NCBI RefSeq assembly: GCF_003627095.1
Contig: NZ_CP032627.1
Location: 186,001-250,000 of the forward strand
Source: Lactococcus allomyrinae
Lineage (GTDB): Bacteria; Bacillota; Bacilli; Lactobacillales; Streptococcaceae
DNA length: 64,000 nt
Direction: 5' to 3'
Part shown: one piece after another, positions 12,823 through 63,600 of the stretch
Numbering within the stretch: position 1 is the stretch's first letter
Layout: each line of letters starts with the position of its first letter
Program-made: the position numbers and the translations under genes
Notes under the pieces: model-generated
Databases searched by the model: none
What the model was told of the DNA's origin: nothing
Seen by the model: only the letters and a program-made list of their open reading frames with translations

Positions 12823-12984
12823 ATGACAGCTAAACACCAACAATTTAATTTTTTGCCTAATGACCCACAAAAAAAGAAAGCTACTTTGCGGGACATTACT
12901 ACTAAAGATACAGGATGGTTCCAAAGTGATTTTAAGGCACGTATTGCTGCTCTAGGAAGTCAGGATAATCATGCGACAACGTAA
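12823..12984 (+). CDS. small hypothetical protein
   Basis: A 53-residue protein MTAKHQQFNFLPNDPQKKKA and onward, starting 13 bp after a weak GAAGGG. It overlaps the following gene by 14 bp, indicating coupling. No domain recognised. Confidence 0.45.
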   Translation: MTAKHQQFNFLPNDPQKKKATLRDITTKDTGWFQSDFKARIAALGSQDNHATT

Positions 12985-13693
12985 TAGTAATTATGAAAGT
13001 TCTCACGAAACACAGCGTGGTGCAAGTAAGGCACGCACGGAAGCCATGACGACTTATTTTACTCAGCCTTTAATTACAGTAGATACGCCTGAAACGATTG
13101 CCAAACGTTATCTTCCCGTCTCAGTACTTTCAAGACATGTGGAAGATTTCATGCAAGAAGAACGTGGCGAGGGTTGGGTTATGATAAATGACGAATTGTC
13201 TCAAGAAGAAAACTCACTTTTGTTAATGAAGGAACAATACTATGAGAAATATTTATATTATCAGAGTTTTTATAAAAGTCATGACCGCCGACTGAGCACC
13301 ATGATGCCGCTCATTCGTATGCTTAAACATAGCACTTATGAAGGTTTGGCTGCTAAACAAAAACGAAATTCTATTATTTTTGGAAGTCTGTTAATTCTAA
13401 GCGCATTGATTATTCTCGCACTTTTGCGTGTTGTATTGGCTACACCATATACTTTACTAGCAAGTATATTTGTAGGCTTATTTTTGGGTGTTTTTTTAAT
13501 CTTTCAGTATGCCTACAAGCAAGATGTAGAAGATTTACTCCTGGATGCTGAGGTGCGAGAAGTTTTAAATAAAAAGTTCCAATATATTTTAGGACAAATC
13601 TTTAGAAATGCTGTAAATAATATCCAAGAATTACCAAATGCAGAAGAAAAAATGGGAAAACGGAGTATTTTCCCGACAAAATTTGGGTCATGA
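12971..13693 (+). CDS. two-helix membrane protein
   Basis: 240 residues. A soluble N-terminal part of about 135 residues is followed by two strong membrane helices (SIIFGSLLILSALIILALLR, then TLLASIFVGLFLGVFLIFQY) and a soluble C-terminus. It is the last gene of the coiled-coil operon, ending before the tRNA cluster. Function unknown. Confidence 0.6.
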   Translation: MRQRNSNYESSHETQRGASKARTEAMTTYFTQPLITVDTPETIAKRYLPVSVLSRHVEDFMQEERGEGWVMINDELSQEENSLLLMKEQYYEKYLYYQSFYKSHDRRLSTMMPLIRMLKHSTYEGLAAKQKRNSIIFGSLLILSALIILALLRVVLATPYTLLASIFVGLFLGVFLIFQYAYKQDVEDLLLDAEVREVLNKKFQYILGQIFRNAVNNIQELPNAEEKMGKRSIFPTKFGS

Positions 13694-13779: not shown

Positions 13780-13851
13780 AGCAGAGTAGAGCAATGGCAG
13801 CTCATCTGGTTCATACCCAGAATTGGTGATGGTTCGAGTCCATCCTCTGCA
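13780..13851 (+). tRNA. tRNA with CAT anticodon (Met type)
   Basis: Cloverleaf by eye: acceptor GCAGAG/CTCTGC, D stem GAGC/GCTC, anticodon stem TCTGG/CCAGA with loop TTCATAC, T stem GATGG/CCATC with TTCGAGT. The anticodon is CAT; elongator Met or a lysidine-modified Ile2 tRNA cannot be told apart here. The terminal acceptor pair is mismatched. No CCA is encoded. Confidence 0.85.
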
Positions 13852-13857
13852 ATTATT

Positions 13858-14425
13858 GTCTCATCTCGGTTATACAGGGCTTGATAACCCTCCGAGAGCC
13901 TTTCTAAGTATGCCCTTAGTGGTGTATGAAAGTAACCTTTGTAAGTTTTAGTGGTGATAACCCCTAAGCGCGAAGATTGAAGCGTGTGAGCGTGAATTTG
14001 CTAGTAAAAGCTAGTGTGAAATGGAAGGTGTGGCAATGTTTTATCACTTTAGTGCATTCTTCTTTTCGGTAGATAGAATTATACGGTGGTTGTTGCGAAA
14101 ACCACAAGCAGCCGTATAGCTCAGTGAGGCTTGCTCTAGCTGGCAAGGAAACCTGAGTATTGCTAAGCAATCTGCTGTGTCGTGAAACTGAGAAATCAGG
14201 GTATAAGAGAAGCGAGAAGTTCAAGTAGCCCAAGACACATACTCATAATAAAAACATTTACTAAATTATATGTTGAAATCTGTATCGGGTGAAAGTTGGG
14301 AGATTTTGTTTCTCGCCCAATCATTAAAAGCAATAGGAGCTAAGAGAGTTGCTACTCTTAGTAGAGCCTGTTGGGATTGTCGCATAATTAAGAGGAGTAA
14401 AACATTGTTTGGAGAAAAACCGGGA
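13858..14425 (+). ncRNA. hairpin-rich non-coding stretch between tRNA genes
   Basis: About 570 nt without a credible ORF. Visible helices: CTCGG/CCGAG (13865, 13892) enclosing AGGG/CCCT with loop CTTGATAA; TTAG-GG/CC-CTAA (13948-13966) with loop TGATAA; ATACGG/CCGTAT (14081, 14112) enclosing TGGTT/AACCA; CTCAG/CTGAG (14120, 14153) enclosing CTTGC/GCAAG. The density of nested perfect stems and repeated TGATAA loops suggests a large structured RNA co-transcribed with the tRNAs. The size is close to that reported for ROOL RNAs, but I cannot match a consensus. Group I introns and RNase P were considered and lack their core motifs. Confidence 0.45.
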
Positions 14426-14434
14426 CAATATTTT

Positions 14435-14523
14435 GGAGAAATAGAATGTAATTTGGTATCAGGCTAGACTTGAAATCTAGCAATCGCAAATGCGGTGTGT
14501 CGGTTCAAATCCGACTTTCTCCT
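14435..14523 (+). tRNA. tRNA-Ser (TGA)
   Basis: Acceptor GGAGAAA/TTTCTCC, anticodon stem GCTAGA/TCTAGC with loop CTTGAAA (anticodon TGA), a long variable arm as in class II tRNAs, and a T loop TTCAAAT. About 89 nt. No CCA encoded. Confidence 0.88.
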
Positions 14524-14948: not shown

Positions 14949-15057
14949 TTTTACAAATGGTTTTGCTCAACAGTCAGAGTATCCAAACAAATTTGGGTTG
15001 GATAGGAGTTCGATACTCACACAGAACCACTATATATTTAAGAAAGAAGTAAAAAGG

Positions 15058-16337: not shown

Positions 16338-17456
16338 ATGGTTATACGAAAAATCGCTCAAAAAATACCTTTCAAACCAACAAAGAAGCAAATTCAGTTC
16401 TTTGCGGATTGTTTTGGTGCGAGAAGATTTGTGTATAACAGCCAAGTTGCTGTATTCAATACTTACTTTGAAGAAAATAAGAAGTTAGTCTATCCTAAAA
16501 TCACAGACCTTAAACATGAGAATGAGTGGTTAAGAGGAAGTGTTGTGCCTGCTCACAGTCTCTCTAATGCACTCATGGATTTTGGTAAAGCTCGTTCTGC
16601 CTACTTCAAAAAGAAAAAGTATTCAAAAAATCGTCCTCGATTTCAAAGCCGTCACGATTACATTCAATCGTTCAGAAATGGAATGCCTCTAAAAACAATT
16701 CGTGAAAACGGACGCTACCAACTTTCAAAGAAGCTAGGATATATTAAAATCCGTAAACGTGACAACCTCCGCTATCCTATTGAACAGATGACCCAATGGA
16801 CAGTCAAGCGTGAGGGCGACAAATACTATATCGTCTTCTTGTTCACGGTTGAAGTTGAAACGCAATCTGAAACCACTGGTGCAGTTGGTATTGACCTTGG
16901 CATTAAAGACTTCGCTATCACATCGGACGGCGAAAAAATAGATTTGCCTGAACAAATCGGAAAACTGGAAGCCAAAGTGATAAAAGAACAGCGTAAACTT
17001 TCACGAAAACAAAAAGGCAAAGGCAAGCAGTCGAACAACTTCTATAAGCAAAAAGCGAAGTTACAAAAGGCTCATGCTAAAGTTCGTCATGTTCGTGAGA
17101 ACTTCCATCATCATGTGTCAAAACAGCTCGTTGAAGAAAACCAATTCATTGCTTTGGAAACATTGAGACCTTCTAATATGATAAAGAACCACAAGCTGGC
17201 TCGTTCGATTGCACGAGCAGGCTGGCGACAATTCACCAATCAGTTGGAATATAAAGCTCAATGGTATGGACGTACCGTACAACACGTGGGGCAATACTAT
17301 GCAAGTTCAAAGACTTGTGGAAATTGTGGCATCATCTATCACGGTCTTAAACTTTCTGAAAGAGAGTGGACGTGTTCAGAGTGCGGCACCCATCATGACA
17401 GAGACCTTAACGCAAGCCAAAACATTCTCAAAGAAGCACAACGATTAGCTTCTTAA
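16338..17456 (+). CDS. tnpB: TnpB RNA-guided nuclease
   Basis: 372 residues, the usual TnpB length. An N-terminal helical/HTH part is followed by the RuvC motifs: [11 protein letters not shown] (Asp), [12 protein letters not shown] (Glu) and [12 protein letters not shown] (Asp), all intact. Between II and III lies a CxxC...CxxC zinc finger (CGNCG ... CSECG). Known family members use a right-end-derived RNA to cut DNA next to a TAM and help the IS persist. The start follows GAAAGGAAG. Confidence 0.92.
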
Positions 17457-17602
17457 AATAAATACTTGTAATTGTTAAAGAACCGACCGACAATCGGGGA
17501 TAGCTCGCTCAATATAAGAACCTCTGGCACACGGAAACAAATCCGGAGTCAAGTCTGCTTAGTTCGCGAGAATCTCGGTACTTTAGTACCGAGAATGTTC
17601 AA
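17400..17602 (+). ncRNA. TnpB guide RNA scaffold (right-end RNA)
   Basis: TnpB guide RNAs overlap the 3' end of tnpB and run to the right end. Here about 145 nt beyond the stop contain pairs such as CCGA-CCGACAATCGG and CTCGGTAC/GTACCGAG. The guide would be the roughly 20 nt after TCAA at 17602, which fall on the ribosome site and start of the next gene. Extent inferred from family knowledge. Confidence 0.55.
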
Positions 17603-17619
17603 AGAAAAAAGGAGAAGCT

Positions 17620-17851
17620 ATGAAATTTGGAAATAAAAAGAGTAAGAAATATTATGGGATATTCGCAAGCGAGTAAAATGCGATGGTTTCCTTTTGAAAA
17701 ATTTGAGCCACAATACGCTCAAGGATATATTCGATTAGAAGCTGATTCAAATGAAGTTGGATTTAGAGTTGTAGATACTTATGGACGTAGAGATGAAGAA
17801 CTTGAAAAAGAGGGATTTGTCTTTGAAAAAGGGAGCAGCCAAAGCACGTGA
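17620..17851 (+). pseudogene. short gene with probable frameshift
   Basis: The ATG at 17620 behind AAAAAAGGAG reads MKFGNKKSKKYYGIFASE and stops. A second frame (entered near a TATTATGGG run) continues MGYSQASKMRWFPFEKFEPQ to 17851. Joined, they would give about 76 residues, unknown in function. The tnpB element ends 17 bp upstream, and its guide would match this start region. Translation from TTG at 17627 is an alternative. Confidence 0.4.
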
Positions 17852-17864
17852 GAGCGTGCTTTTT
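17841..17864 (+). terminator. hairpin terminator
   Basis: AAAGCACG pairs with CGTGCTTT around TGAGAG, then TTT. It overlaps the stop codon of the preceding gene and isolates it from the RNA promoter at 17938. Confidence 0.7.
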
Positions 17865-17937
17865 ATAATGGTTTAAATAAAAATAATTATTTTTTAGCTG
17901 CTAAGAAAAGTGAAAAAATATATAAAAAGCAGAAGAA

Positions 17938-17975
17938 GGACTTGTTTTTGGTCAAAAAATTGTGCGTGAGATAAT
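17938..17975 (+). promoter_or_regulatory. element-type promoter for the giant RNA
   Basis: GGACTTGTTT with GATAAT exactly 32 bp downstream inside TGAGATAATAA. Transcription would start near 17982, directly into the non-coding structured region. Confidence 0.75.
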
Positions 17976-17981
17976 AAACAG

Positions 17982-18830
17982 GTAAACATTTTATATACTA
18001 TTCTATTTGACCTTAGGTCAGCCAGAACTCCGAAGCTTCGCTTTGGTGTATTGAGTTTCTTGTATGGGATATTTTTATTGAAGGTTCACTCGTTGTGATA
18101 TGCTTTGTCGATTTTATCGCCATTCTATCATTTCTTGATGTGTTCCCGCTCGGTTCAAATTTCTTCATTCAACACTTAATTATCCATTGCAGCTTTTGTT
18201 AGAGGATAGGCAAATGAGAACGTGTGTTCTTATGAGGTAATATCGTGAGATATAGGTTTCTTGTGAAACTGTAAATTTTGATGCTATGTCATTTTTTACA
18301 CCCAAGCACCAATAGCCGAAATTGAATTTAATGGGTTTGATTTTCTCGGTCAAACATCATGTTTCAATTTTAAAATGAACAGCAATGATTTCCAAGTCTG
18401 GAAGTTGAGTGCATAAGAGAACTTGTACTGTTTTGTGAAAACAAGCAAAATCTGACTGTTCATCATTCAAATGTTCAAGTTAAAAACGTCCGATGTGGAA
18501 TGGTTTAACCTGATTCATGATTAAGACAGCGTAACGTCCGGTGTGGAATTGACGTGTCACCCTAAGAAGTGGCTTGCAAGTGGTTCTTGCGTCTTAACAA
18601 GTTGAATGTAATTAAAATTTCTGTTGAGCTAGTATTCAGAAGAGAACAGATTTTATCTGTCTGATAATGAGCGAAAGTGTAGTGTACAAGAGTACATCCA
18701 GTTTTACAAGAGGCAATAGAACAAAATGTTCGTTAGTGCGTGGCATTTGTTTGTAGTTGTCCAAAGCATTTATTGTTTTTAAACACATAAGGGTCAACGT
18801 ACCATACGTTTTTGCCCTTATGGGCTAGAA
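17982..18830 (+). ncRNA. candidate giant ornate RNA (GOLLD/ROOL-like or new class)
   Basis: About 850 nt with a dedicated promoter, no credible ORF, and a chain of perfect small hairpins: GACCT/AGGTC (18010), CCGAAG/CTTTGG (18030), ATATC/GATAT with loop GTGA (18240), GTTTC/GAAAC with loop TTGT (18256), ACAGAT/ATCTGT (18646), TGTAC/GTACA with loop AAGA (18683). It closes with CATAAGGG/CCCTTATG (18786, 18815) enclosing AACGTA/TACGTT. The 17-mer AACGTCCGRTGTGGAAT occurs twice, 48 nt apart. GOLLD and ROOL RNAs are known from mobile elements of Lactobacillales, near tRNA genes, at 580-800 nt. Assignment to either is inference. Confidence 0.65.
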
Positions 18831-18840
18831 AGGCATGAAA

Positions 18841-19008
18841 ATGCAAAAAATTAGTAAAAAATACATTATTTTTCTTCATTCTTCATCAGGTTATTCAATA
18901 GGACAAATTGAAGGAGACAACAAGCGAAAACTTGCGCTTGAAGCTCTGGATATTATGGATTGGGCTTCATTTAATTATTGCTACCGACGTGTTAAACGGG
19001 TGGAATAA
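18841..19008 (+). CDS. small hypothetical protein
   Basis: A 55-residue protein from the ATG 7 nt after AAAGG (another ATG lies 6 bp upstream). It contains GYSIGQIEGDNKRKLALEAL and a basic C-terminus YRRVKRVE. It directly follows the structured RNA and could be read from the same transcript. No family recognised. Confidence 0.5.
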   Translation: MQKISKKYIIFLHSSSGYSIGQIEGDNKRKLALEALDIMDWASFNYCYRRVKRVE

Positions 19009-19071
19009 TAAGAAAAGCTAATTGAATCGGTTTGATAAATGAATTGATAAGTAGAAAAATAATACTAACAC

Positions 19072-19186
19072 AAAAACGCACTAGACGTTACTCTATTGAG
19101 TAAATAATTTGTGCGTTTTTCGTTCAGTAGAATTGAGAACAAACAACGCACAAAGTCTGTATGTTCAGGCTAATATTGTGCGTTTT
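19072..19186 (+). repeat. two tandem AACGCAC/GTGCGTT hairpins
   Basis: AAAAACGCAC ... GTGCGTTTTT (about 19074-19120), then AACGCACAA ... TTGTGCGTT (about 19145-19184). The same inverted-repeat pair occurs twice in a row just before ssb. Either could act as a terminator, or the pair as a double-stranded protein site. Confidence 0.5.
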
Positions 19187-19215
19187 TATATTTTATGCAC
19201 AAAGGGGCACATATC

Positions 19216-19689
19216 ATGAATAACACACAACTCATCGGACGCACAACCAAAGTAATTGAACTTCAAACATCACCAGCTGGAAAAAGTTACGCACGTTTTA
19301 CTATTGCAGTCAATCGTCGTTTCAAAAATGCCAATGGGGAGCGTGAGGCTGACTTCATTCCTTGTATCATTTTTGGACAATCTGCGGAAATTTTTTCCAA
19401 ATATGTTCAAAAAGGAGATTTAGTAGGAATTGATGGTGAATTGCGGACGAGTAATTACACTGATAAAGATGGCAATAAGCGCTTCAATATGGAAGTGATT
19501 GTCACAGCCTTTGATTTTTTGCCTTCGCATAATCAAAATGCTCAAGGAAATCAAAGTACACAACAGGGACAACAAAATCCTTCCGCTTATCAAGCACCAC
19601 AAGCAAATAGTGGTCAAGCTTCTACGTATGATGACCCATTCTCAGGTGGTACTCCAATGGAAATCAATCCAGAAGATTTGCCATTCTAA
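19216..19689 (+). CDS. ssb: single-stranded DNA-binding protein
   Basis: 157 residues from the ATG after AAAGGGGC; an in-frame ATG 21 bp upstream has no ribosome site. The N-terminal OB fold is typical (NNTQLIGRTTKVIELQTSPA; FTIAVNRRFKN; ADFIPCIIFGQSAEIFSKYV), followed by a Gln/Asn-rich linker and an acidic tail ending NPEDLPF, the SSB partner-binding tip. It coats single-stranded DNA in replication or conjugation and would work with the Bet protein and helicase nearby. Confidence 0.95.
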   Translation: MNNTQLIGRTTKVIELQTSPAGKSYARFTIAVNRRFKNANGEREADFIPCIIFGQSAEIFSKYVQKGDLVGIDGELRTSNYTDKDGNKRFNMEVIVTAFDFLPSHNQNAQGNQSTQQGQQNPSAYQAPQANSGQASTYDDPFSGGTPMEINPEDLPF

Positions 19690-19692
19690 AAA

Positions 19693-19826
19693 CGATAAGT
19701 ACGGTGTGGAACGGGGGAAAGAGAGAAACACGTAAAGTGTGGAAGGAATGAAACCCTGAGGTCAGTGCCTGTCAAGCTTGCTTGATATGGTAACACTTCA
19801 CTTTACCTATCGTTATAATAAAAAAC
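19693..19826 (+). other. long inverted repeat after ssb
   Basis: AACGATAAGTA at 19693 can pair with CCTATCGTTAT at 19806-19818, enclosing about 110 nt with further short stems. It may be the ssb terminator region or a structured leader for the small peptide gene at 19913. Confidence 0.35.
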
Positions 19827-19912
19827 AAAATAAATAATGGTATTAGGAAACTAATACCTTGTGGTAGCCACGTAAATCCTTTTACGGGGTAAAAAGAAAG
19901 GAGGTATCTTTT

Positions 19913-20002
19913 ATGACCTCACTTCTTTCTCGCATGGTATTAGTTGGGATGTTCAAATTTGTACTCACGGGTACGAAGGCGAAAGAAAAACCGCCGCCGT
20001 AA
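19913..20002 (+). CDS. small hydrophobic peptide with strong ribosome site
   Basis: 29 residues: a hydrophobic centre (LLSRMVLVGMFKFVL) and a basic, Pro-ending tail. It follows a very strong AAAGGAGG. A GC-rich hairpin (AAACCG-CCGCC ... GGCG-CGGTTT, 19988-20014) overlaps the stop and is followed by T-rich DNA. Size, hydrophobicity and a compact structured transcript resemble type I toxins, but no known toxin family or antisense promoter is certain. Alternatively a leader peptide. Confidence 0.4.
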   Translation: MTSLLSRMVLVGMFKFVLTGTKAKEKPPP

Positions 20003-20236
20003 GGCGAAACGGTTTCTCTTGTGGTTAGTTAGACTACTGATTCAACTATTGGTCCAAGGACTGATAAGCAAATTGGTAAACTATCTGACCCCACTTCTCT
20101 AATATTATTATACCATGCGAGACCCGCAGACGCAAGTTTGCGTGGCTTTCAGAGGGTATTGTTTACTTTTCCAAGAAATAATCAGTTCAAAATAATGAAG
20201 AATTTGGACCTAATTAAAAAGAGAGTAGTAAATAAT

Positions 20237-20398
20237 ATGGAAAACATAGAAGCACTTTGTAACCATTTAGAGAATATGACAGTGACGGAAAGAAAAAAAC
20301 TGTTTGAAAGACTTTCTCTTTATAAAAAAATTATTTTTCTAATTTGTTTGGGATTAATAATCCTTTTAATGAAAAGGAATAAAGAAGTTACAAAATAA
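20237..20398 (+). CDS. small C-terminally anchored membrane protein
   Basis: 53 residues from this ATG (a longer version from 20195 is possible, neither has a strong ribosome site). Soluble N-terminus MENIEALCNHLENMTVTERK, then one membrane helix IIFLICLGLIILLM and a basic end. Function unknown. Confidence 0.4.
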   Translation: MENIEALCNHLENMTVTERKKLFERLSLYKKIIFLICLGLIILLMKRNKEVTK

Positions 20399-20414
20399 TA
20401 ACTATAATAAAATT

Positions 20415-20475
20415 GCACCTAAACCCAATCGGGTATGGATAATTCCAACCCGAAAGGGTTGAGGAAGTAAATAAA
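20415..20475 (+). repeat. hairpin leader, copy A1
   Basis: AACCCAATCGGG pairs with CCCGAAAGGGTT around a 15-base loop. About 60 bp, almost identical to the leader at 21484, ending directly at the ATG of the Bet gene. Confidence 0.7.
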
Positions 20476-21471
20476 ATGACAAAAGAACTACTTGACCTTG
20501 CAAACACAGATAATTTGACAGCAAGCATTGTACGTCAATATATCACGGGTGGGGCACAAGCTTCCCCTGAAGAATTAGCATATCTGGTTACTATTGCAAA
20601 AAACATTAAAGCAAGTCCGTTTCTTAAAGAAATTTACTTTATTAAGTATGATGAGAAAACACCTGCTCAAATTGTAGTATCTCGTGATTTTTATAGAAAA
20701 CGAGCACAAATGAATCCTCTATTTAAGGGGATTGAATCTGGTGTTATTGTGACAGACCTTGATGGAGAGCTTGCTTATCGTGATGGTGCGGTTAAATTAC
20801 CAACAGACACCTTATTAGGCGGCTGGGCTAAAGTCTATGTCAAAGATTATGTTTCTCCTATCAAATCCTCTGTTATGTATGATGAATATGTACAGATGAA
20901 GGATGTTTGGGAAAATAATCGAAAGACAGGAGAGAAAGAGCCAAAAGCATTATGGGCATCTAAACCTTTAACAATGATTACTAAAGTTGCAGAGTCACAA
21001 GCTTTACGCTCAGCTTTTCCATCAGAATTTTCTGGTTCGTATGCCGAGGAAGAGATTCCAGAAGCTTCTGAACTGATTAATAAAGATAGAAAAGATGTCA
21101 CGCCAGCACAAGGACAAATAGGAAATCCTGTTAATCAACAAGGGATGTATAAACAAACCTCAAGACAGGAAGTATTGGAAAAACAAAAAATGGAGAGCAT
21201 TCAGAAAAAAGGGGAACGTCAACAAGCGCCAACTAATCAGTACGCACAACAAGGACTTTCCACTCAAAACGACCGCTATCCGGATGTTCGTTCCTCTCAA
21301 CAAGGGAACGGACAAGCACAACAGTCCCAGCAACCACAATATACTGGAACACAAGTAAGTAACGAACAACAGGCTCAAAATAATGATGAATTTAACCCTA
21401 ATCGTTTTGCTCGTGACCCTCAACAAAGTTCACAAAAAAATGAAACGTTCGTTAATGAACTTCAATTTTAG
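20476..21471 (+). CDS. bet: Bet/RecT-family single-strand annealing recombinase
   Basis: 331 residues. The N-terminal 195 residues show the Redbeta/RecT core (TASIVRQYITGGAQASPEEL, FLKEIYFIKYDEKTPAQIVV, RDFYRKRAQ, AWAKVYVKD-like GGWAKVYVKDY, and LWASKPLTMITKVAESQALR). The C-terminal 130 residues are a Gln/Asn-rich linker ending ETFVNELQF, an SSB-tail-like end. It anneals complementary single strands in phage-type recombination. Neighbouring ssb is the usual partner; no exonuclease gene is recognised next to it. Confidence 0.85.
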   Translation: MTKELLDLANTDNLTASIVRQYITGGAQASPEELAYLVTIAKNIKASPFLKEIYFIKYDEKTPAQIVVSRDFYRKRAQMNPLFKGIESGVIVTDLDGELAYRDGAVKLPTDTLLGGWAKVYVKDYVSPIKSSVMYDEYVQMKDVWENNRKTGEKEPKALWASKPLTMITKVAESQALRSAFPSEFSGSYAEEEIPEASELINKDRKDVTPAQGQIGNPVNQQGMYKQTSRQEVLEKQKMESIQKKGERQQAPTNQYAQQGLSTQNDRYPDVRSSQQGNGQAQQSQQPQYTGTQVSNEQQAQNNDEFNPNRFARDPQQSSQKNETFVNELQF

Positions 21472-21483
21472 TTTATATTAGTA

Positions 21484-21543
21484 CACCTAAACCCAATCGG
21501 GCATGGATAATTCCACCCCGAAAGGGTTGAAGAGGTAAATAAA
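21484..21543 (+). repeat. hairpin leader, copy A2
   Basis: Second copy of the 20415 leader, differing at only a few positions, again ending at the start codon of the next gene. The stem CGGG/CCCG and AACCC/GGGTT is kept. Confidence 0.7.
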
Positions 21544-22092
21544 ATGAACGAAATTACACTTACTGGAGAATATAAAGCAATTTATCCAGAGAATAAAGAA
21601 TATCAAAGTAGAGAGAGTTCTTTCTATTGGCATCTTACCAAAGAGGATAAAGAATTTCTTGATGTACTAGAGAATATTTTTAAACGCAAGGAAATAATTG
21701 AAAAATTTAAATCTGCTTTTGGAGATAATTTCCACTTTTATCATTCAGAATATAGCTTTACATATGATACCAATGAGGTAAATATCACATGCTTTTATAA
21801 TGGGATGCGCGAACTTTCTTTACAAGAGAAGAAAGAAAAAGAAATTGCTGACGATAAGCAGATGGGGTCTTCTGAAAAGCTTGTACTGGCTCAAAATTTA
21901 ACTGTACCCGCTTATTCAAAGAAAAGAGAACTTTTGTTTCGCGGAGAATCATTCAAAAAAAGAATTTGGGTAAATGATTGGATATTAAAATTTGATGTTA
22001 CAGATAACTTGATTTTAAAAGAGACCGGATTAGTTAATTCAAAAACGGTTCCTGATATGATGGAGTATTTATCTTCTAAATTTCCCAACTAA
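21544..22092 (+). CDS. hypothetical protein
   Basis: 182 residues, charged and soluble, beta-rich N-terminus (MNEITLTGEYKAIYPENKEY) and helical middle. Shares its leader sequence with the Bet gene, so the two are likely controlled alike. No family recognised. Confidence 0.55.
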   Translation: MNEITLTGEYKAIYPENKEYQSRESSFYWHLTKEDKEFLDVLENIFKRKEIIEKFKSAFGDNFHFYHSEYSFTYDTNEVNITCFYNGMRELSLQEKKEKEIADDKQMGSSEKLVLAQNLTVPAYSKKRELLFRGESFKKRIWVNDWILKFDVTDNLILKETGLVNSKTVPDMMEYLSSKFPN

Positions 22093-22138
22093 CTATATAA
22101 ATTGAACTCTTAATTGAGTAGCAATCACTTAGTATGAT

Positions 22139-22239
22139 TCATAATGCCGCTAAAATCGGGCATTAACTACCGCAAGGGATTTCATCACTCCCTTGCGGAA
22201 TGGTGTGTTCCTACATTTATTAAAAATAAAGGAGACATT
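22139..22239 (+). repeat. hairpin leader, type B
   Basis: AATGCC/GGGCATT with loop GCTAAAATC, then a perfect 10-bp stem CCGCAAGGGA/TCCCTTGCGG. The first stem is nearly identical to that at 29095-29122. Confidence 0.65.
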
Positions 22240-22734
22240 ATGACTAACACTATTAAAACAAATCAAAATCTCAAAGAAACTTTTGCTGCGATTGCGAATA
22301 ACGACTTAGACCGCATGGTTGCAGTTTATGAAAATGAACAAGTCAATCAAGCAGTACAAGCTTATCAAGCAAAAGTTCATGCAATTTCTAGCCAACTGGC
22401 TCATGTTGCTGAACTTTGTACAGGGTTGAAACAACGCTACTTTGGTTTAAAGGAATCTACGTTCACTCGCGCCTCTTATATGTCCGCAAAAGCTTCATTA
22501 AAGGTTTGTGCGAACGTGAAGAGAACTATCAAAAATACTCAGTTATTTTTAGTAGAAAGACGCTTTGAATTTGGATTTGAAGAAACAAAAGCAATGTTGA
22601 AACTTTTTGTACCATATCTTGAAGGACTTAAAATTTTAATTAAAGGCTATGTCCAAATGGTACAGAAGTATGAATTTGAACAAACACAAGCAGACTTGTT
22701 TTATTTACAAGCAAAGAATGTAGCACTTACTTAA
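22240..22734 (+). CDS. hypothetical helical protein
   Basis: 164 residues from the ATG after AAAGGAGAC; the upstream open frame runs through the leader and is ignored. Mostly helical, with a basic middle (TFTRASYMSAKASLKVCANV KRTIK) and no membrane segments. Function unknown; phage-like early gene by context. Confidence 0.55.
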   Translation: MTNTIKTNQNLKETFAAIANNDLDRMVAVYENEQVNQAVQAYQAKVHAISSQLAHVAELCTGLKQRYFGLKESTFTRASYMSAKASLKVCANVKRTIKNTQLFLVERRFEFGFEETKAMLKLFVPYLEGLKILIKGYVQMVQKYEFEQTQADLFYLQAKNVALT

Positions 22735-22823
22735 AAGTTTGTGATGCATAACACTCAGGAGGGTGCAATATTCCCTTCTGGGGATACTGTATCTCTCCAT
22801 TTTTTGAAAGGAAATATTAAAAA

Positions 22824-23755
22824 ATGGCAGTAGAAATATACACAGCAGATGCAATCAACTTACTTTACTTGTATGAAAAAACAGGAGAATATGGCGATAC
22901 CACGATTACCTTTGCGGAAATCAAAGATTACGTGGAGTATATCGCTAAAGTTCGTAAGATTGAAATAAAATCAGGAAAAGAAACAGAAGTTGATGTTGAA
23001 CGTCCGCTCTCGATTCTATCCAGCACTTTCTCGAAAAATATAAAGCGAATAGACCTATAGAGGTAGCACAGGCTAATAAAGGTGTGGAAAAATCTAAACT
23101 TAGTATGACTATAGAAAATTTTTATATAGCACTTAACAAGATTTTGAAGCATGAAAAATTAGATGTTGATGAAGCGTTATTCTTTTTAGAAGAGACAAAT
23201 GATGTTTTGAATAAAGAAAATATCTGGCAGTTTTTGGGACTCTCTGAAACGATGCTTGAAGAGACGGAACTTCCGTTTAATATGACTGATTCTATTTTTA
23301 AAGCACATAACCGCATTGGAAAAGTCTTTGCAGTTGAAAATGTACAAGAACTTTCACGATACAAACACGTTTGTTATGGTGCTCATGGAACCAAAAATGA
23401 TAATGTTTTATCTATTTTATCCAATGGTTTTGTTTCATCTGACAAAGTTAAAGCCGTGGCATTTTCAGGTCAAATGTTCGGAGAAGGAGTCTATATGTGT
23501 CGCCTTTCTCAATTTTCTAAAGTTTTGAACTACATTTCTAGTCCCAGTACCTCAACTCCAAGTTATGCCTTTTTAATGAAAATTGGATATAACAAAAAAA
23601 TTGATGTGACGTCTAGCAGAAGCGAAACTATACAACCTGGGGAATTAGTTCATGCTCATGATATTGGAATGTATTCAAGAGATGAATATGTTGTGGCGGA
23701 TAGTTCTCAAATTGCTATTACGCATATTGTTGAAATTTTTGAGAAAAACAACTAA
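22824..23755 (+). pseudogene. PARP-type ADP-ribosyltransferase, split by a frameshift
   Basis: The second open frame (GTG 23084) holds a PARP catalytic fold. His is in CYGAHGTKNDNVLSILSNGF (codon 23384), Tyr in MFGEGVYMCRLSQFSKVLNY (codon 23492) and Glu in RDEYVVADSSQIAITHIVEI (codon 23684), matching the H-Y-E triad. Upstream, 22824-23060 gives 78 residues, but a better continuation jumps frame near 23000 and joins SALDSIQHFLEKYKANRPIE to the PARP part. Joined length would be about 309 residues with a helical regulatory-like domain before the catalytic one. PARPs transfer ADP-ribose from NAD+ to proteins or nucleic acids. Either a real or technical indel, or two coupled genes. Confidence 0.7.
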
Positions 23756-23873
23756 AAATATCACTTATCACTTGATAAGCCCAAGAGTTTTTAACTCTTT
23801 TTTATCATGGGATAAGACTTCTGCTTTAGCAGTTGGGGCTTTTATAATGGCATCTGCCAAAGAAAGGAGCCTC

Positions 23874-24851
23874 ATGGCTAAACAGATTATTTATCCCACT
23901 AACGAAAATGAAATTCTCACTCAAAAAGTGAACTACACCAAAACAAAAGATGGTATCACAAACTGGAACTTTTGGACAGGTAATTCTTCTGATAGATTTG
24001 GGTTTTATCCCTCTTTAGTAAATCCTATTACTAAAATGGAAGCATTGCTTGATTATCGAAAGAAAATGCGTGTAGCTTATGAGAGAAGACTTACTGAACA
24101 ACAAAAGAATGTTATCAATCCGATTGATAATCAACAACAACTGAAGCAATGGTTAGAAAAAGAGGGTGTAATAAAAGCAGCATCATACTTTGAATTTAAA
24201 GATTCATCAAGTAATTGGGTAGATTTGAAAGCTATTGCTCCTTATTATTATTCAGAAGCTGTTCTGTTTTTTGAAAATCTTTTTTTACCTCAATTAGATG
24301 CTTTAAATACATTATTTACCTTTACTGGAAGTTGGGAAGATGATTTGAAAAGATATGCTTTTGAGATGGAAAAGACGCGTATTGAAAATTCAATGTTGCA
24401 TCTGAATTTAAAAAACAAACATTCAGATACTGCTTTTCTAAGTCACTCTATTATTAGAAAGGTAACGGCTGAAATTAATAAGGCTTATTATTCAACCATT
24501 GAAAATTTTAATGGTAATTCTAGGACAAAGCTAAACTTAGAAAATAGCACTTTGACAAACTTTGAAGGCTCAAATAATTTTACTTTGGTGAATTCTAAGT
24601 GGTGTGATACGGCATTTCAGCGTCACACTGGTGGTGAAAATAACGCTAACATCTTCTTGGAAAATGTATCGCTTATCAACTGTACGGTTAAATCAAATAA
24701 TAAAATTAAATTCCGAGGAGAGGACGAGAATAATGTTCTCACCTTGAAAAATATAACAATTTTAGATTTTAGAGAAATTTCATATACTACAGATGAAGAA
24801 ACAACATTGACTGCCGATATGGTAAAGAATAATAAAATAATCCTTTACTAA
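23874..24851 (+). CDS. hypothetical protein with beta-helix-like C-terminus
   Basis: 325 residues from the ATG after GAAAGGAGCC. The N-terminal half is helical (NQQQLKQWLEKEGVIKAASY); the C-terminal 130 residues repeat short N-x-LxNSTLTNF / LENVSLINCTVKSNN / LKNITILDF units, typical of a right-handed beta-helix or pentapeptide-like repeat. Follows the PARP gene behind a TTATCACTTGATAA hairpin leader. A substrate or antidote of the PARP is conceivable only from position. Confidence 0.5.
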   Translation: MAKQIIYPTNENEILTQKVNYTKTKDGITNWNFWTGNSSDRFGFYPSLVNPITKMEALLDYRKKMRVAYERRLTEQQKNVINPIDNQQQLKQWLEKEGVIKAASYFEFKDSSSNWVDLKAIAPYYYSEAVLFFENLFLPQLDALNTLFTFTGSWEDDLKRYAFEMEKTRIENSMLHLNLKNKHSDTAFLSHSIIRKVTAEINKAYYSTIENFNGNSRTKLNLENSTLTNFEGSNNFTLVNSKWCDTAFQRHTGGENNANIFLENVSLINCTVKSNNKIKFRGEDENNVLTLKNITILDFREISYTTDEETTLTADMVKNNKIILY

Positions 24852-24955
24852 TTTTACTTTTTAACACCCAAAGGGGGATAATCGTTCCCTTTGGGAAGTT
24901 ATCTCCTTTTTACTTTAAAAGCTTGCGAGCAAAAATAAAATGGAGGAATACTGAA

Positions 24956-26350
24956 ATGGCAAAAAATAAAAAGATAGTAAACGGACAGCTCTCGTTCTTT
25001 GACTTATTGGCAGGGTATGAACGTGAAGCAGTTGAAACACAAATCACTGTTCCCGAAATTAAAGGAATTACTGGAGAACTTTTTGATTGGCAAAAAGCAC
25101 CCACTGATGCCTTAAAAGCTATTTTACTAGATAAGGAAAATGAAGATTATAAAAATCAACGTGCTTTCTTCATATTTGGTGAAGTTGGTGTCGGGAAAAC
25201 TTATATCTCATGTTATATAGCAAAAGATTGGCAAGGAGAAGTAAAAATTATTGCGCCAATAGGAACACACAAAAATTGGAAATCTTGTTTAAAACTTTTT
25301 GGCGTTGAAAACGCTGAAATAGTTGAGACTATAGATTTTGATATTTTCACAACGATTGACCCAGAAAATTTATTAATTATTGTGGATGAAATTCATAATA
25401 ATGTAAAAGATACAGAGTGGCTAAATTTGTATTCGTGCTTTGTAAAAGCAGGGGTAACCTTATTAGGATTGACAGGCACACCTTTTGAAAAGCAAATTAA
25501 TGTATTTGCGAAAGCAGCATTAATCCTTTCAAATTTGGACGTCCCTCGATTAAAAGCCGGACAAGTGAAAAAATATTTATCACAAGTCGTTCCTTATCAT
25601 GGTATATCCCTCTCTAAACCTGCTGAAAATATCCAGCCTCATTACATTACAAAGACGAAAGAAATTGCGATTGAAATGAGTTCGGAACAACGTGCGTTCT
25701 ATGATTTTATGGTTGCACGTACTGGTAAATTGGATATTTCAAACTTTCAACTCGCAAAAGCGACTGATAATTTTGTGGATTTTGGAGATACCGAAACATT
25801 CTTTACTAAGCGAGATACAGGACGCTATTTTGTAGGGTATAAAGCAGAAGATAAATGCGAAAATCAAAAATTGGTAGCATTGAGAAAAGAAACTTTCACT
25901 TTATCTGGTAAGACTTTAGTCTATGTCAACACGAAAAAAGCCTTAGAATTCCTAGAAAAAGAAGGATTTGATACTTTAACGTTTGAGGATAAAGAAAAAA
26001 CAGAAGAACTCATCCATCAACACTATGAAACCAAGGATATTCTTGTTGTTTGCACAACAGAGGTCAAAGAAGGGATAAATCTTGATGAAATAACCAACAT
26101 TATTTGGTATCAAACTCCAAAAAATGCAGTAGATTTCACTCAATGCAACGGACGGATGCTTCGTGGTGTTCCAGAGAAAGATACTGTTAAAAATGTTATT
26201 CAGATTTTTTCTCATAACACGATTCAAGAAAAAGTGGCTAATCAATTAGCAGCTGTGGTTACAGGCAATAATATATCTATTGCTTCTGAATCTTCAGAAA
26301 CATGGGAAACGCGTCTGGAAGCTTTCTTGAGAAATGTACAAAGTATGTAA
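24956..26350 (+). CDS. SF2 helicase (phage type)
   Basis: 464 residues from the ATG after TGGAGGAATACTGAA. Helicase motifs are visible: Walker A GEVGVGKTYIS (about 75), DEIH in IVDEIHNN (about 142), motif III GLTGTPFEK, and motif VI QCNGRMLRGVPEKD (about 395). The N-terminal NGQLSFFDL could be a partner-binding peptide. It would unwind DNA in the element's recombination or replication together with Bet and SSB. Preceded by a CCCAAAGGG/CCCTTTGGG leader hairpin. Confidence 0.85.
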   Translation: MAKNKKIVNGQLSFFDLLAGYEREAVETQITVPEIKGITGELFDWQKAPTDALKAILLDKENEDYKNQRAFFIFGEVGVGKTYISCYIAKDWQGEVKIIAPIGTHKNWKSCLKLFGVENAEIVETIDFDIFTTIDPENLLIIVDEIHNNVKDTEWLNLYSCFVKAGVTLLGLTGTPFEKQINVFAKAALILSNLDVPRLKAGQVKKYLSQVVPYHGISLSKPAENIQPHYITKTKEIAIEMSSEQRAFYDFMVARTGKLDISNFQLAKATDNFVDFGDTETFFTKRDTGRYFVGYKAEDKCENQKLVALRKETFTLSGKTLVYVNTKKALEFLEKEGFDTLTFEDKEKTEELIHQHYETKDILVVCTTEVKEGINLDEITNIIWYQTPKNAVDFTQCNGRMLRGVPEKDTVKNVIQIFSHNTIQEKVANQLAAVVTGNNISIASESSETWETRLEAFLRNVQSM

Positions 26351-26441
26351 TAACACTAACCATAAAAGGAAAACAGCTTCTTTGGTGGTGTTTCTCTTTT
26401 ATAAATTATTAAACTAACAATTATAAGGACATAAAAATAAA

Positions 26442-26855
26442 ATGGGATATACAAATTATTTTACAACAACTAAAAAAGACTTTAATTCTGAATTTATTGC
26501 TTTAGCACGAAAGATTGTTGAACTATCTGACGTTTCTACTAAAGGCTGGGATGGAACGAAGAAGGCTGAGTTCAATCTTAAAACAATTTCCTTAAATGGG
26601 GATGCAAGCAATCAAGAAGATTTCGAGACGTTCGAGTTATCTAGGTTTGCTTATGATTTTCGAACAGATGACTACTATTTACCGTCTGAACTGAAGTTTG
26701 CATTTACAAAAACTGAAAGATTACCTTACAGTTTTAATGGTAAAGTCACAGATAGCGAATTCATTGCAGGAGCAAATTTATTCAATAATGCTCTGGACTA
26801 TTTTAACATTGAAAAACTATCTATCGAAGAATGTGAAAACTTTGTAAAGCAGTAG
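26442..26855 (+). CDS. hypothetical protein (YTNYF type)
   Basis: 137 residues beginning MGYTNYFTTTKKDFNSEFIA. This start pattern occurs in small proteins of phages and mobile elements of unknown role. Acidic, no membrane helix. Preceded by an AACACT ... GGTGTTTCTC leader. Confidence 0.55.
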   Translation: MGYTNYFTTTKKDFNSEFIALARKIVELSDVSTKGWDGTKKAEFNLKTISLNGDASNQEDFETFELSRFAYDFRTDDYYLPSELKFAFTKTERLPYSFNGKVTDSEFIAGANLFNNALDYFNIEKLSIEECENFVKQ

Positions 26856-36245: not shown

Positions 36246-36283
36246 GGACTTGTTTCCTGAAAAAAATAGAGCTATGGGATAAT
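36246..36283 (+). promoter_or_regulatory. element-type promoter for the OMEGA RNA
   Basis: GGACTTGTTT with GATAAT 32 bp downstream (TGGGATAATAG). Its predicted start near 36290 coincides with the 5' end of the OMEGA RNA region. Confidence 0.7.
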
Positions 36284-36289
36284 AGAAAA

Positions 36290-36615
36290 ATAAAATATCA
36301 AGGAGGTTCAATAGCTCCAGTGACACACGGGTTTGAAAACCCATGATTGCTCGCTTTGCTCAGTCGCATTGCAAGATGTGATTCGAGCGAAATATTGAAT
36401 AGTCTAAGCTAGAAATAGCTACGTTATCTTGGTTAACAGACCCGTGGACCTTTGTTCTCATCTACGGCTCTCTGGAGGCACTGTAAACAGTTCTGTTGGA
36501 GACGGAACGGTCAACCTCGGTACGGCTTATCAAATAAGAAAGCCTTGATAACATTGACGAAGGACACCAACGGAGATTTATCTCCGATTTACATTAAATT
36601 TCAAAGGAGGGAAGC
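36290..36615 (+). ncRNA. OMEGA RNA (HEARO) of the IscB locus
   Basis: About 325 non-coding nt sit between a promoter and iscB, where family knowledge places the OMEGA RNA, with the guide at its 5' end. Stems visible: GGGTTT/AAACCC (36330), GCTAGAAATAGC (36409), GGAGGCACTG-x-CAGT (36473), ACGGCTTATCAA/TTGATAACAT (36523), CGGAGA/TCTCCG (36572). A GGAGG ribosome site for iscB is at its 3' end. The guide would be within about the first 20 nt of the transcript. Boundaries are approximate. Confidence 0.65.
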
Positions 36616-37856
36616 ATGACCCAACAAATCAAATTCATCAATGTTCTGAATAACCACGGCACATGGTACGTCGATGGATTAAAACAGGACAAGCACACTG
36701 GATTGGACGTGACACCATTCAATTCGACCGTCCAATAGGTTCAGAAACACAAGAACTCACATTAGGCATTAATGCCGGCTATAAAATCATTGGTGCATCA
36801 GTGACAAGTGAGACACAAGAGTATTATGCCTCAGAAACGAACCTGCGCACTGATATTGTCAAGAACTTGAGTACAAAACGTCAATATAGACGGTCTCGTA
36901 GAAATCACAAGACACGATATCGTCAGGCACGCTTTGACAATCGTGTGAAGTCAAAGCATAAAGGTTGGCTTGCCTCAAGTATTGAAGTCAAGATTGACAA
37001 TCATGTCCAGCTCATTCGCAAGCTTATAAAGAAGCTTCCGATAACTAATATTATCGTTGAAGCTGGACAGTTTGACATTCAAAATCTCAAAAACCCTGAC
37101 ATCACAGGTAAAGAATACCAAGAAGGAAATCAACTTGGATTTGCTAATGTCAGAGAGTATGTCTTAGCAAGAGACCATCACAAATGTCAACACTGCAAGG
37201 CAGATGGTTTGAAAGGTATCAAGTTACACGTCCGTCACCTCGTCTCACGAAAAGTGGGAGGTAACCGCCCTGACAATCTCATCATTTTGTGTGAAAACTG
37301 TCACGCAGCTTACCACCGTGGCGAGTTTGAATTAAAGAAAGCACCAAAAGGCTATGCGCCAGCTAGTGCAATGTCAATCATGCGTTCGACCCTGCTTGAC
37401 CGACTCATTAATGAATTTGGTGACAAGGTGGAGACAACGTTTGGCTATTTGGTCAAAGAAGCACGACTCACAATTGACTTGCCAAAAACAAGCATGACTG
37501 ATGCCTTCGTCATTGCAGGCAATCTAATGGCTGACAGATTAGACTTTCAAGAGCTGAGAAAGCATGTGCGCTGCCATAACAGACAACTCCACAAAGCAAA
37601 ATTTCTTAAAGGTGGCATCCGCAAAGCCAATCAAGCTCCAAGAGAAGTTCATGGTTTTCGACTGTTTGACAAGGTTCAGGTAGAAAACAAAAATTGGTTT
37701 GTTTTTGGAAGAAGAACCAGTGGCTATTTTGACCTTCGTAGTCTGACAGGAGAAAAGCTCAATAAGGGGAGCTATAGTGCCAAAAAAATTAAGCTCGTAC
37801 ACCGAGCAAATTCAGTAATCACACAATACGCAACAATCGCTCCAACGGGAGCATAG
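36616..37856 (+). pseudogene. iscB: IscB-type OMEGA nuclease with damaged N-terminus and altered RuvC-I
   Basis: The start at 36616 (after AAAGGAGGGAAGC) reads MTQQIKFINVLNNHGTWYVD, matching the N-terminal part of the PLMP domain. The rest is in another frame (36663 onward, 397 residues): VRRWIKTGQAHWIGRDTIQF continues PLMP, then RuvC-I, an Arg-rich bridge (KRQYRRSRRNHKTRYRQARF), RuvC-II (NIIVEAGQFD), HNH (CQHCKADG ... HVRHLVSRKVGGNRPDNLII ... CENCHAAYH), RuvC-III (TDAFVIAGN). RuvC-I reads TLGINAGYK with Asn (codon 36771) where nucleases have Asp. The internal ATG at 36663 may give a PLMP-truncated protein. Nickase, dead regulator or relic are all possible. Confidence 0.8.
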
Positions 37857-60670: not shown

Positions 60671-63600
60671 ATGGATTTGATTAAAGAATTGGATATTAAA
60701 AATGATGTTCCTTCCGTAAAATTGCGCTATTATCAAGAAGAAGCGAAAGCTGCGATTGAAGCAGAATGGGAAAAAGGCAACAAAAGAACCCTAGTTGTTA
60801 TGGCAACAGGGTGTCATAGAGTCGGTGAAGGTCTTTTAATGGCTGATGGAACTGTTCAAAAAGTTGAAAATATCAAAGTTGGTGATAAATTATTAGGGGG
60901 TGACGGCTCTCCTCGTACAGTATTAAAACGGCATGAAGGAGAAGATGAAATTTATGAGATTAAACCTATCAAAGGAAAAAGTTTTTTTGTAACAGGGAAT
61001 CATAAACTAACTTTGGTGAAAACAAGAAGGCGTGGAGATAATTCGCCACAGTATCCATCTTATCAGTATGATGCTTCTTTTGTAGATGTATCAGTAGATG
61101 ATTGGCTTTCATGGGGTAAAACACAAAAGCATATCCATAAATTAGTTAGAACAACAGGGGTTGAATTTCTAAATAAGGTTACTTTACCTCTTCCCCCTCA
61201 TTTTCTTGGTGTTCTTCTTGGAGATGGTGGCTTGAAGTATCAGTTAAATGTGACTACTATGGATGAAGAAATTGTTGAAGAACTCATTAATCAAACTAAG
61301 GCACTTAATATGGAGCTTAGTCATACACCTGCTGGACGAGCAAAAACATATAAATTTTTAGATAATCATAAGCACAATAATAAATTAAGAAATATTTTAG
61401 ATACTTTAGATTTAACTGATAAAGGCTCAGAAGAAAAATTTATTCCACAAATTTACAAAACTGCATCTACGCAAGATAGACTAGAATTAATTGCAGGATT
61501 ATTAGATACAGATGGAAGTTTAAGCAATACAACTTATGATTTTACATCTAAATCAAAACAATTAGCAGAAGATTTGGTATTTCTTTGTCGCTCGGTTGGT
61601 TTAGCCGCTTATATGTCTGAAGCTAAAAAAGGAATAAAAAGTTTAAATTTTGAAGCAATTTATTGGCGTGTATGTATTAGTGGAAATACTGATAGAATTC
61701 CATGTAGAGTAGCGCATAAAATTGCTTCCAAAAGAAAACAAAAGAAAAATGTACTTAGAACAGGTTTTACTGTGACTCCTGTTGGAAAAGATAATTATGT
61801 TGGTTTTACAGTAGATGGAGATAATCGTTACTTACTAGATGATTTTACGATTACTCATAACTGTGGCAAAACGATAGTCATGGCAAAGGTCGCGGAAGAA
61901 CAACAACGTCTTCATCCAGACAAACAAATTTTAGTGCTTGCTCACCGTGGAGAACTGCTAAATCAAGCAATGAATAAATTTGAAAAAGCAACAGCACTTA
62001 CCACTGTAAAAGAGAAAGCCCAAGAGACAAGTATTGGTTCGGAAGCACAAGTCGTTGTTGCTTCTGTTCAAACCATGAAAAATGATAAACGTCTGCATCA
62101 ATTTGACCCAGAACAGTTTAGCACCATTATGGTCGATGAGACACATCATATTATGGCAAAGATGTACCGCAAAGTCATTGACTATTTCCCCAATGCGAAT
62201 ATGTTAGGTGTCACAGCGACAGCTGACCGGACAGATAAATTAGATTTAGGAGAAGTATTTGACAGTGTTGCTTATGAGTACGATTTAGCAACAGCTATTA
62301 AGGACGGCTATCTTTCTCCATTAACCGCTCAGACTATTCCAATTAATATTGATTTAAACGGCGTACATATGAAAGCAGGAGATTTTAATGAATCTGAACT
62401 TGATGATGTTTTAGGACCTTATTTAGAACGAATCGCAGATGAAATGGTCCTCGCGTGTGAAGGACGACAAACAGTCGTTTTTATGCCGTTGATTGCGACT
62501 TCCAAACGTTTTGTGGATATCCTAAATAAAAAAGGCTTTCGTGCTGCTGAGGTCAATGGACAATCTAAGAATCGGGATACCATTCTCAAAGATTTTGAAA
62601 ATCGGAAATATGAAGTGTTGGTGAATGCCATTTTGCTTACTGAAGGTTGGGATTGTCCGACTGTGGATTGTATTGTTATGCTTCGTCCAACCAAAAGCCG
62701 AAGTCTTTATGCACAGTGTATTGGGCGGGGAACTCGCTTATCGCAAGGAAAAAAAGAGTGCCTTATTTTAGATTTTCTCTGGAATAGTTCTAAGCACGCA
62801 CTCTGTCATCCTGTTTCGCTTCTTACCAAAAATGAAGCACTGGTACATAATGCGTCACTCCTCGCACAAAATGGCGAACCAAAAGCTGTTGACGAGTTAG
62901 TTGAAGAAGCGAAAGAAGAATATAAAAAAGCACAATATGCACAGTTGACACGAGAATTAGAAGCTCTTTCTATTCGGCGCCGTCGGAAAAAGCTTGACCC
63001 TTTTGAAATTTTTCTAGGGAATGCGAATGGTGTGGATTTCTCTGATGAAACCCAGAAAATGACAATGAGTCAAAATCAAAAAAACTGGTTGGATAGTAAT
63101 AATATAGATACTTCTTTGATTAAAACCTACGCACAAGCTGAGAGTTTAATCAATCAATTAACACATCGTGAACCAGACCAAGCTACGCTGAAGCAAGTGA
63201 AACTTCTTAAAGATAAAGGATTTAAACAGGCTGACCAATGGACAAAAGTAGAAGCGTCCGAAGTCATAGGAAAAATAGCAGAAAACTTCTGGGAAGTGCC
63301 ACGCTCAATCCATCCAAATACATATCAACCAAAACGCTTAGAAAATATTGAAAATAAAGAGAATTCTTCCTCAATACAACACTCTGAGATAAAAGAGCGT
63401 ATTAAAAAATTTGATAAACTGATAGAAAAGCAATTTTTAGAGTTGATTGCATCTGATAAAGAAGTGACAGCTAATGATAAGTTACGAAAAGCCATGCTTC
63501 AAGCCATGATGGAAGAAAAAAGCAACAGAGTAACGGCAATAAAACGAGCCTTTTTACAGAAAAAATCTCAAAAAGAAATAGATGGTATTGTTTATCAAGA

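Follow-up and report, generated by a model that had tools for sequence, protein, structure and literature searches.

A candidate long structured non-coding RNA in a probable lactococcal integrative and conjugative element that also carries ROOL

The window analyzed here, 64,000 nt covering bases 186001-250000 of a 2.695-Mb contig (C1) of a Lactococcus genome, contains at 17982-18834 on the plus strand a stretch that we read, ahead of other explanations and with middling confidence, as a long structured non-coding RNA of about 850 nt encoded by an integrative and conjugative element (ICE). The stretch has no ORF, a codon score like that of ROOL RNA, an excess of hairpins and no convincing Rfam match. 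The analysis supports the first-pass annotation in its proposal of a dedicated, long non-coding unit bearing structure signals, and the analogy it drew with giant RNAs is better than it knew: this same element carries a true ROOL 3.5 kb upstream.

The candidate is preceded by a promoter-like motif at 17938-17975 on the plus strand (GGACTTGTT, 20 nt, TGAGATAAT), an exact match to GGACTTNTT-N20-TGNGATAAT. Exact copies of this pattern number 12 genome-wide (11 forward, 1 reverse) and lie, all of them inside the ICE, between C1:186271 and C1:276629; the reversed-pattern control has 0, and dinucleotide shuffles of the window (n = 30, one strand each) yielded no site with one mismatch or fewer. The dedicated promoter claimed earlier is confirmed as a motif and is stronger than claimed. 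Motif positions in the window include 11891, 17938, 31830, 36246, 47495, 52254, 55738 and 60600. A plain sigma-70 scan did not list the 17938-17975 site because its -35 hexamer is poor; the site would be of the extended -10 type, with a box further upstream, and the family perhaps reflects an ICE-encoded activator working on extended -10 promoters. Two of 18 genomes of the genus carry the motif, the source genome and that of L. nasutitermitis (3 exact copies). A slightly stricter form matched 17 GTDB contigs once each, the only Lactococcus-titled one being from L. nasutitermitis. A motif search of viral contigs matched five, and no repeated leader pattern was found in viral contigs.

The spacing between motif and gene distinguishes the 17938 site from the rest of the family. 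With up to two mismatches the ICE holds 24 copies, 23 of them on the plus strand and some possibly due to chance, for which distance was measured between the -10 box and the first ribosome-binding site (RBS) plus ORF of at least 40 aa. This distance is 865 nt at the candidate and 17-399 nt at the other 22 plus-strand copies, 14 of which stay under 100 nt. The sole minus-strand copy (308) gives 1340 by this crude rule, yet the integrase frame starts ~200 nt beyond it. Among exact plus-strand copies the next-longest distance, 332 nt, is found ahead of iscB, where a guide-RNA region is presumably located. An exact motif copy followed by such a distance suggests that an ICE promoter is aimed at this stretch, with no gene met for 865 nt.

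Two further loci begin at, or contain, promoter-like sites. At 36246-37856, an IscB (RRXRR + HNH) is preceded by a well-folding non-coding leader of ~380 nt whose start coincides with one of the ICE-family promoter motifs; no HEARO match was obtained at the Rfam cut-off. At C1:260200-261850 (window coordinates 74200-75850, L056), a short-unit array carries 11 promoter-like TGTTATACT-type sites, a pattern fitted by eye. Two of the 11 stand before cold-shock-like genes (by eye), and the rest are spaced 77-112 bp apart within runs, each having behind it a small hairpin, one arm of which is purine-rich and Shine-Dalgarno-like. Seven hairpins have T-rich tails by script, and as a whole the array is reminiscent of a bank of very small RNAs.

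The candidate would belong to a separate plus-strand transcription unit of ~17982-19120, its start placed near 17982 from the motif, that comprises the ~850-nt non-coding body and a 55-aa ORF. Upstream, a terminator-like hairpin predicted at 17841-17862 on the plus strand (AAAGCACGT-GAGA-GCGTGCTTT, then TTATA) would close the preceding unit. Downstream, the 55-aa ORF (18841-19008, plus strand; RBS-like AAAGG; frame-0 codon score +0.211 in a single 150-nt window) is followed on the same strand by two terminator-like hairpins in the predicted fold, at 19072-19120 (AAAAACGCAC ... GTGCGTTTTT) and at 19145-19184 (ACGCACAA ... TTGTGCGT, then a T-rich tract), both upstream of the ssb start at 19195. 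A generic terminator scan with a stricter pattern listed none of these three hairpins. The extent of 850 nt given at first pass stands as a non-coding body, but the 55-aa ORF and the hairpins that end the unit had been overlooked. The CATAAGGG/CCCTTATG stem, which had been taken to close the 850 nt, is real but folds, as predicted, into a local plus-strand hairpin at 18786-18822, directly 5' of the ORF.

This layout also raises the alternative that the 850 nt form a long 5' leader, a cis-acting regulator of the 55-aa ORF through attenuation or translational control. The ORF lies in the same unit, with its RBS-like AAAGG and positive in-frame codon score, and the stable hairpin at 18786-18822 ends 6 nt before the AAAGG. 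However, 850 nt would be very long for a leader, the triple hairpins and 17-mer modules described below are located ~230-625 nt upstream of the ORF, and no known leader family appears at its Rfam cut-off. The ORF is itself without relatives found, as neither Pfam (up to E = 1) nor searches for relatives, including viral contigs, returned a family or homologue. We consider a leader unlikely and return to the reading as a structured RNA.

The stretch carries no coding signal, as would be expected of a large structured RNA. The earlier claim of no ORF is borne out by the longest frames inside it, 35 aa on the plus and 57 aa on the minus strand. With a codon log-odds score whose training set was the ICE ORFs of at least 200 aa, taken as the mean best-of-six-frames, the candidate reached -0.23, ROOL -0.235 and a second non-coding stretch at 19690-20140 -0.20, compared with +0.21 to +0.43 for four genes, 3 of which are also in the training set. 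Seven small ORFs inside the candidate or overlapping its end had no Pfam match up to E = 1. A decayed protein gene was rejected, as the codon score retains no trace of a reading frame and the Pfam search was empty.

Several local structure signals are present. Perfect hairpins, defined as stems of at least 5 bp with loops of 3-8 nt, number 13 in the candidate against 6.07 ± 2.58 in shuffled sequence (n = 300; P 0.013) and 7 in ROOL against 3.24 (P 0.06), with four coding stretches at 4 versus 6.0, 15 versus 12.0, 12 versus 15.3 and 11 versus 14.8. The many perfect hairpins reported at first pass therefore hold as an excess over shuffles, but at least 13 also occur in 9.3% of ICE windows of the candidate's length; and of the 13 loops, described then as GNRA-like or TTGT, one is a strict GNRA (GTGA) and one is TTGT. 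Within 53 nt at 18217-18269 on the plus strand, three perfect hairpins of 5 bp follow one another, their tetraloops being GTGT, GTGA and TTGT; this is the sole such cluster in the 115-kb ICE and was seen in 0 of 3000 shuffles, by a definition set post hoc, after the cluster was seen.

Further downstream, both the MFE and the centroid fold predict a multibranch plus-strand domain at 18464-18608, closed by the stem CATTCAA/TTGAATG, that holds both copies of a repeated 17-mer. This repeat, already noticed at first pass, is identical at 16 of 17 positions between 18485-18501 (AACGTCCGATGTGGAAT) and 18533-18549 (AACGTCCGGTGTGGAAT), both on the plus strand. For each copy the predicted fold has an outer stem, then the internal loop AACG / AT(G or T)G, and lastly TCC-GRTGT-GGA. 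The outer stems, formed by the flanking helices GTTAAA/TTTAAC (6 pairs) and GCGT/ACGT (4 pairs), are unlike in sequence but both begin flush, at the equivalent position of the copy (simulation P 0.0046). In the modeled fold, a shared 17-mer hairpin with differing outer helices is the closest to covariation that one sequence can give.

Folding energy is less distinctive. The whole-stretch z of the candidate is -3.2 (60 shuffles) or -4.8 (20 shuffles), compared with -2.7 for its minus strand, -2.3 for ROOL and -5.3 to +0.1 for 11 other window stretches; over 120-nt windows the mean z is -0.68 for the candidate, -0.62 for ROOL and -0.49 for RecT. Since these values lie within the range of genes and ROOL, energy neither supports nor excludes an RNA. 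An unexceptional energy, the equal hairpin richness of 9.3% of ICE windows and the lack of homologues in the collections searched would suit non-functional filler, that is, a decayed or inserted stretch beside an IS200/IS605-type insertion with the chance hairpins of AT-rich DNA, and a TnpB gene does lie just upstream (tnpB, 16338), the candidate starting ~480 nt after it. We judge filler improbable given the exact promoter-family motif at the start and the terminator-like hairpins at both borders, the lack of a decayed reading frame by codon score and of any Pfam match in the seven small ORFs, and a hairpin cluster and 17-mer module that exceed shuffles. These same features argue for the structured-RNA reading.

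We then searched for relatives and known families. An Rfam cmscan of 17400-19250 up to E = 10 returned five weak matches, none to GOLLD, ROOL or HEARO, the best being RefA9 (E 0.63) on the opposite strand upstream of the promoter. The covariance-model check that the first-pass annotation had named for these three families thus matched none of them to the candidate; its suggestion of a divergent GOLLD fails, and we reject the candidate as a divergent form of GOLLD, ROOL or HEARO. No similar DNA was found in 50,697 phage records or in 72,556 plasmid records. Among 98 relatives' genomes three matched, one being its own and the others short only. Matches of 29-30 nt (L003, L004) were discarded because they fall on the promoter motif itself, and a 55-nt, 80% match in G071 (L002) to the same part of the query was taken as chance; Rfam scans of these three loci were empty. 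Among 395 genomes of the order, 17 matched at E <= 0.01 (one its own, the rest ~20-50 nt). These short matches are scattered over the query and were set aside, a gathering-threshold scan of ~3 kb each finding only a T-box in L014. Of 335 family genomes, one matched at E <= 1e-4, the candidate itself. The three genome sets overlap.

A covariance model of the multibranch domain (R1, 18464-18608), built from one sequence, recovered only its own sequence in 345 genomes under stricter filters, and in 15 sources itself plus one noise match (13.9 bits, E 0.61). The 17-mer matched two IMG/VR contigs over 19 nt each, in GC-rich DNA that by eye resembles a phage tape-measure gene, and these matches were rejected. 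As a positive control for the DNA search, the ROOL of the window recovered the ROOL of another Lactococcus genome (G015) at 67% identity. The control scored all first-look candidates, whereas the 395- and 335-genome searches scored 2 per genome and the 98-genome search 4, so that the genome-search negatives are weaker than the control. As judged by sequence similarity, the candidate is an orphan in the data searched. A literature search on ROOL and GOLLD with Lactococcus or ICEs, covering mostly non-subscription papers, showed no ICE-borne giant RNA among the titles listed.

The location in a mobile element, claimed at first pass, is confirmed by integrase and conjugation genes, and the window probably sits in an ICE of ~115 kb. 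A tyrosine integrase (Phage_integrase, 4e-25) marks the left end. An exact 17-nt repeat is found at the 3' end of the SRP RNA gene (C1:184642-184658) and at C1:299668-299684; the two copies would bound ~115 kb, and such a repeat alone is weak evidence (E 0.006). The ICE further encodes a T4SS ATPase with ~30% identity to its counterparts on enterococcal conjugative plasmids, a weak match to a TraG/VirD4-type coupling protein (7.5e-5), a relaxase candidate at 71246-72175 (weak Replic_Relax match, 4.3e-4, below cut-off), a ParM-like actin, SSB and RecT. A helicase ORF at 60671-64084 (60671-63997 scanned) carries inserted Hint and LAGLIDADG homing-endonuclease domains, the insert being probably an intein; a helicase scan of viral contigs gave nothing useful. 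Searches with the orphan protein at 12971-13693 brought nothing. Compared over the first 100 kb of its contig 3, the L. nasutitermitis element, the closest relative of this ICE, shares transfer-, regulation- and surface-type ORFs with the ICE and has nothing matching the ssb/RecT region.

A gene content of ssb and RecT is typical of plasmid leading regions, and the hairpin-rich stretch lies upstream of both, as would a DNA-level element, for instance a single-strand origin, a single-stranded promoter or another site of conjugation or replication that acts as folded single-stranded DNA. We hold this to be very unlikely. The relaxase candidate is ~52 kb away, the longest inverted repeat inside the stretch is imperfect (24-nt arms, 71%), and the promoter-like motif that faces into it is of the normal duplex kind. 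The iteron-like repeat array is likewise far off, at ~92.7-93.7 kb; there, at C1:278700-279740 (window coordinates 92700-93740), ~1 kb of TTAAGAGT(N)ACTCTTATTTTG and GTTGAGCGATTT repeats appear, by eye, iteron- or parS-like.

The ssb/RecT region was also compared and inspected on its own. DNA of 18780-26500 had no match among plasmids and matched 32 phage records, the best 20 of the 32 being short ssb or recT pieces. The RecT protein matched 11 distant plasmid records, and its relatives in viral contigs fall in three loci, one of which (L023) is a phage module with RecT and SSB that by eye also holds a relative of the 27446 gene and matches the window in DNA over just 58 nt. Between ssb and RecT, a second dense non-coding structure occupies 19690-20140, where 7 of 9 windows have z < -2 and 19830-20140 folds at -106 kcal/mol; it contains a 29-aa ORF (MTSLLSRMVLVGMFKFVLTGTKAKEKPPP) without a Pfam match and is possibly a type I toxin-antitoxin unit. 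Two 73-nt leaders (20407-20479 and 21475-21547), 89% identical and each forming a long hairpin, stand just upstream of the RecT gene and of the next gene, and may perhaps serve as a protein-binding operator. At 23084-23755 the region also encodes a small PARP-type protein (PARP catalytic domain, E 1.8e-11).

The true ROOL of this element (RF03087; 13841-14442, plus strand; 171.8 bits, E 1e-36) is located between tRNA-Met and tRNA-Ser in a cluster ordered Met-ROOL-Ser-Val-Cys-Pro. The cluster ends at 14949, 3.0 kb upstream of the candidate, in agreement with the ~3 kb given at first pass, where the ROOL within it was overlooked. In the 13780-14523 region the ends of the ROOL model overlap both flanking tRNAs, and in the other Lactococcus genome (G015, C11) ROOL lies between tRNA-Asn and tRNA-Met. 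This sandwiched position in both genomes suggests that the ends of ROOL are trimmed by tRNA-processing enzymes. The G015 ROOL contig (38.7 kb compared) has ROOL and one weak partial protein match in common with the window, and ROOL DNA had no match among plasmids. On the sequence evidence, ROOL is here carried by an ICE-like element and not by a phage. According to PMC12286853, ROOL and GOLLD form RNA-only nanocages, assemblies of 8 and 14 chains of unknown function; their genes have been linked mainly to phages and prophages, where a tRNA island is often close by.

Taken as a structured RNA, the candidate may work as follows. Transcription would begin from one of the ICE-family promoters and stop at the tandem terminators before ssb, giving a unit of ~17982-19120 with the 55-aa ORF carried on the 3' end of the RNA. 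The ~850-nt RNA would fold into hairpin-rich domains and most likely act as a structured RNA in itself. By analogy with what has been proposed for ROOL and GOLLD, it could serve as a scaffold, or oligomerize into an assembly, made when the transfer and maintenance genes of the ICE switch on. More tentatively, and with less confidence than in a structured RNA as such, the candidate may represent a new RNA class, giant, structured and of scaffold type, that is encoded alongside ROOL in one ICE, stands under the ICE promoter regulon, is tied to conjugation and not to phages, and is possibly a partner of, or an alternative to, the ROOL cage. If so, the presence in one ICE of a true ROOL together with another, unrelated long RNA under an ICE-specific promoter would tie these RNAs to conjugation, and would provide a lactococcal system for testing each of the two by deletion. 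Should the stretch be a mere leader or filler, a ROOL in an ICE and a promoter family of fixed spacing would still be useful.

Among known systems, the guide RNAs that IscB and TnpB use are brought to mind by an ICE that carries both nucleases (IscB at 36663). Unlike HEARO and the IscB/TnpB omega RNAs, the candidate has its own promoter-like motif, lacks a HEARO match and is not directly upstream of a nuclease gene, iscB being ~18 kb away. The megaplasmid lncRNA of L. salivarius, as described in PMC5643018, is likewise long, non-coding and without a known function, and is carried by a mobile replicon of the Lactobacillales; it is abundant, species-specific and, at 520 nt, shorter than the candidate, beside which it is set by description only. 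From a remark on L. salivarius in PMC12286853, we infer that this lncRNA is a ROOL. GOLLD resembles the candidate in exceeding 800 nt (~850 nt here, from the putative start to the small ORF), in residing on a mobile element and in having a tRNA island a few kb away, a context described in PMC12286853. It differs in that the candidate is not adjacent to tRNAs, lies in an ICE and not a phage, and gives no match up to E = 10 to a GOLLD model of the conserved 3' region. From ROOL the candidate is separated by the lack of a covariance-model match, a T-rich composition (35% versus 29%), a length of ~850 versus ~600 nt, and a position not between tRNA genes, with its own promoter-like motif and terminator-like hairpins. 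What the two share is a large size, richness in hairpins and a place in the mobile DNA of Lactobacillales, here in the same ICE, together with an equal absence of coding signal and a similar excess of perfect hairpins.
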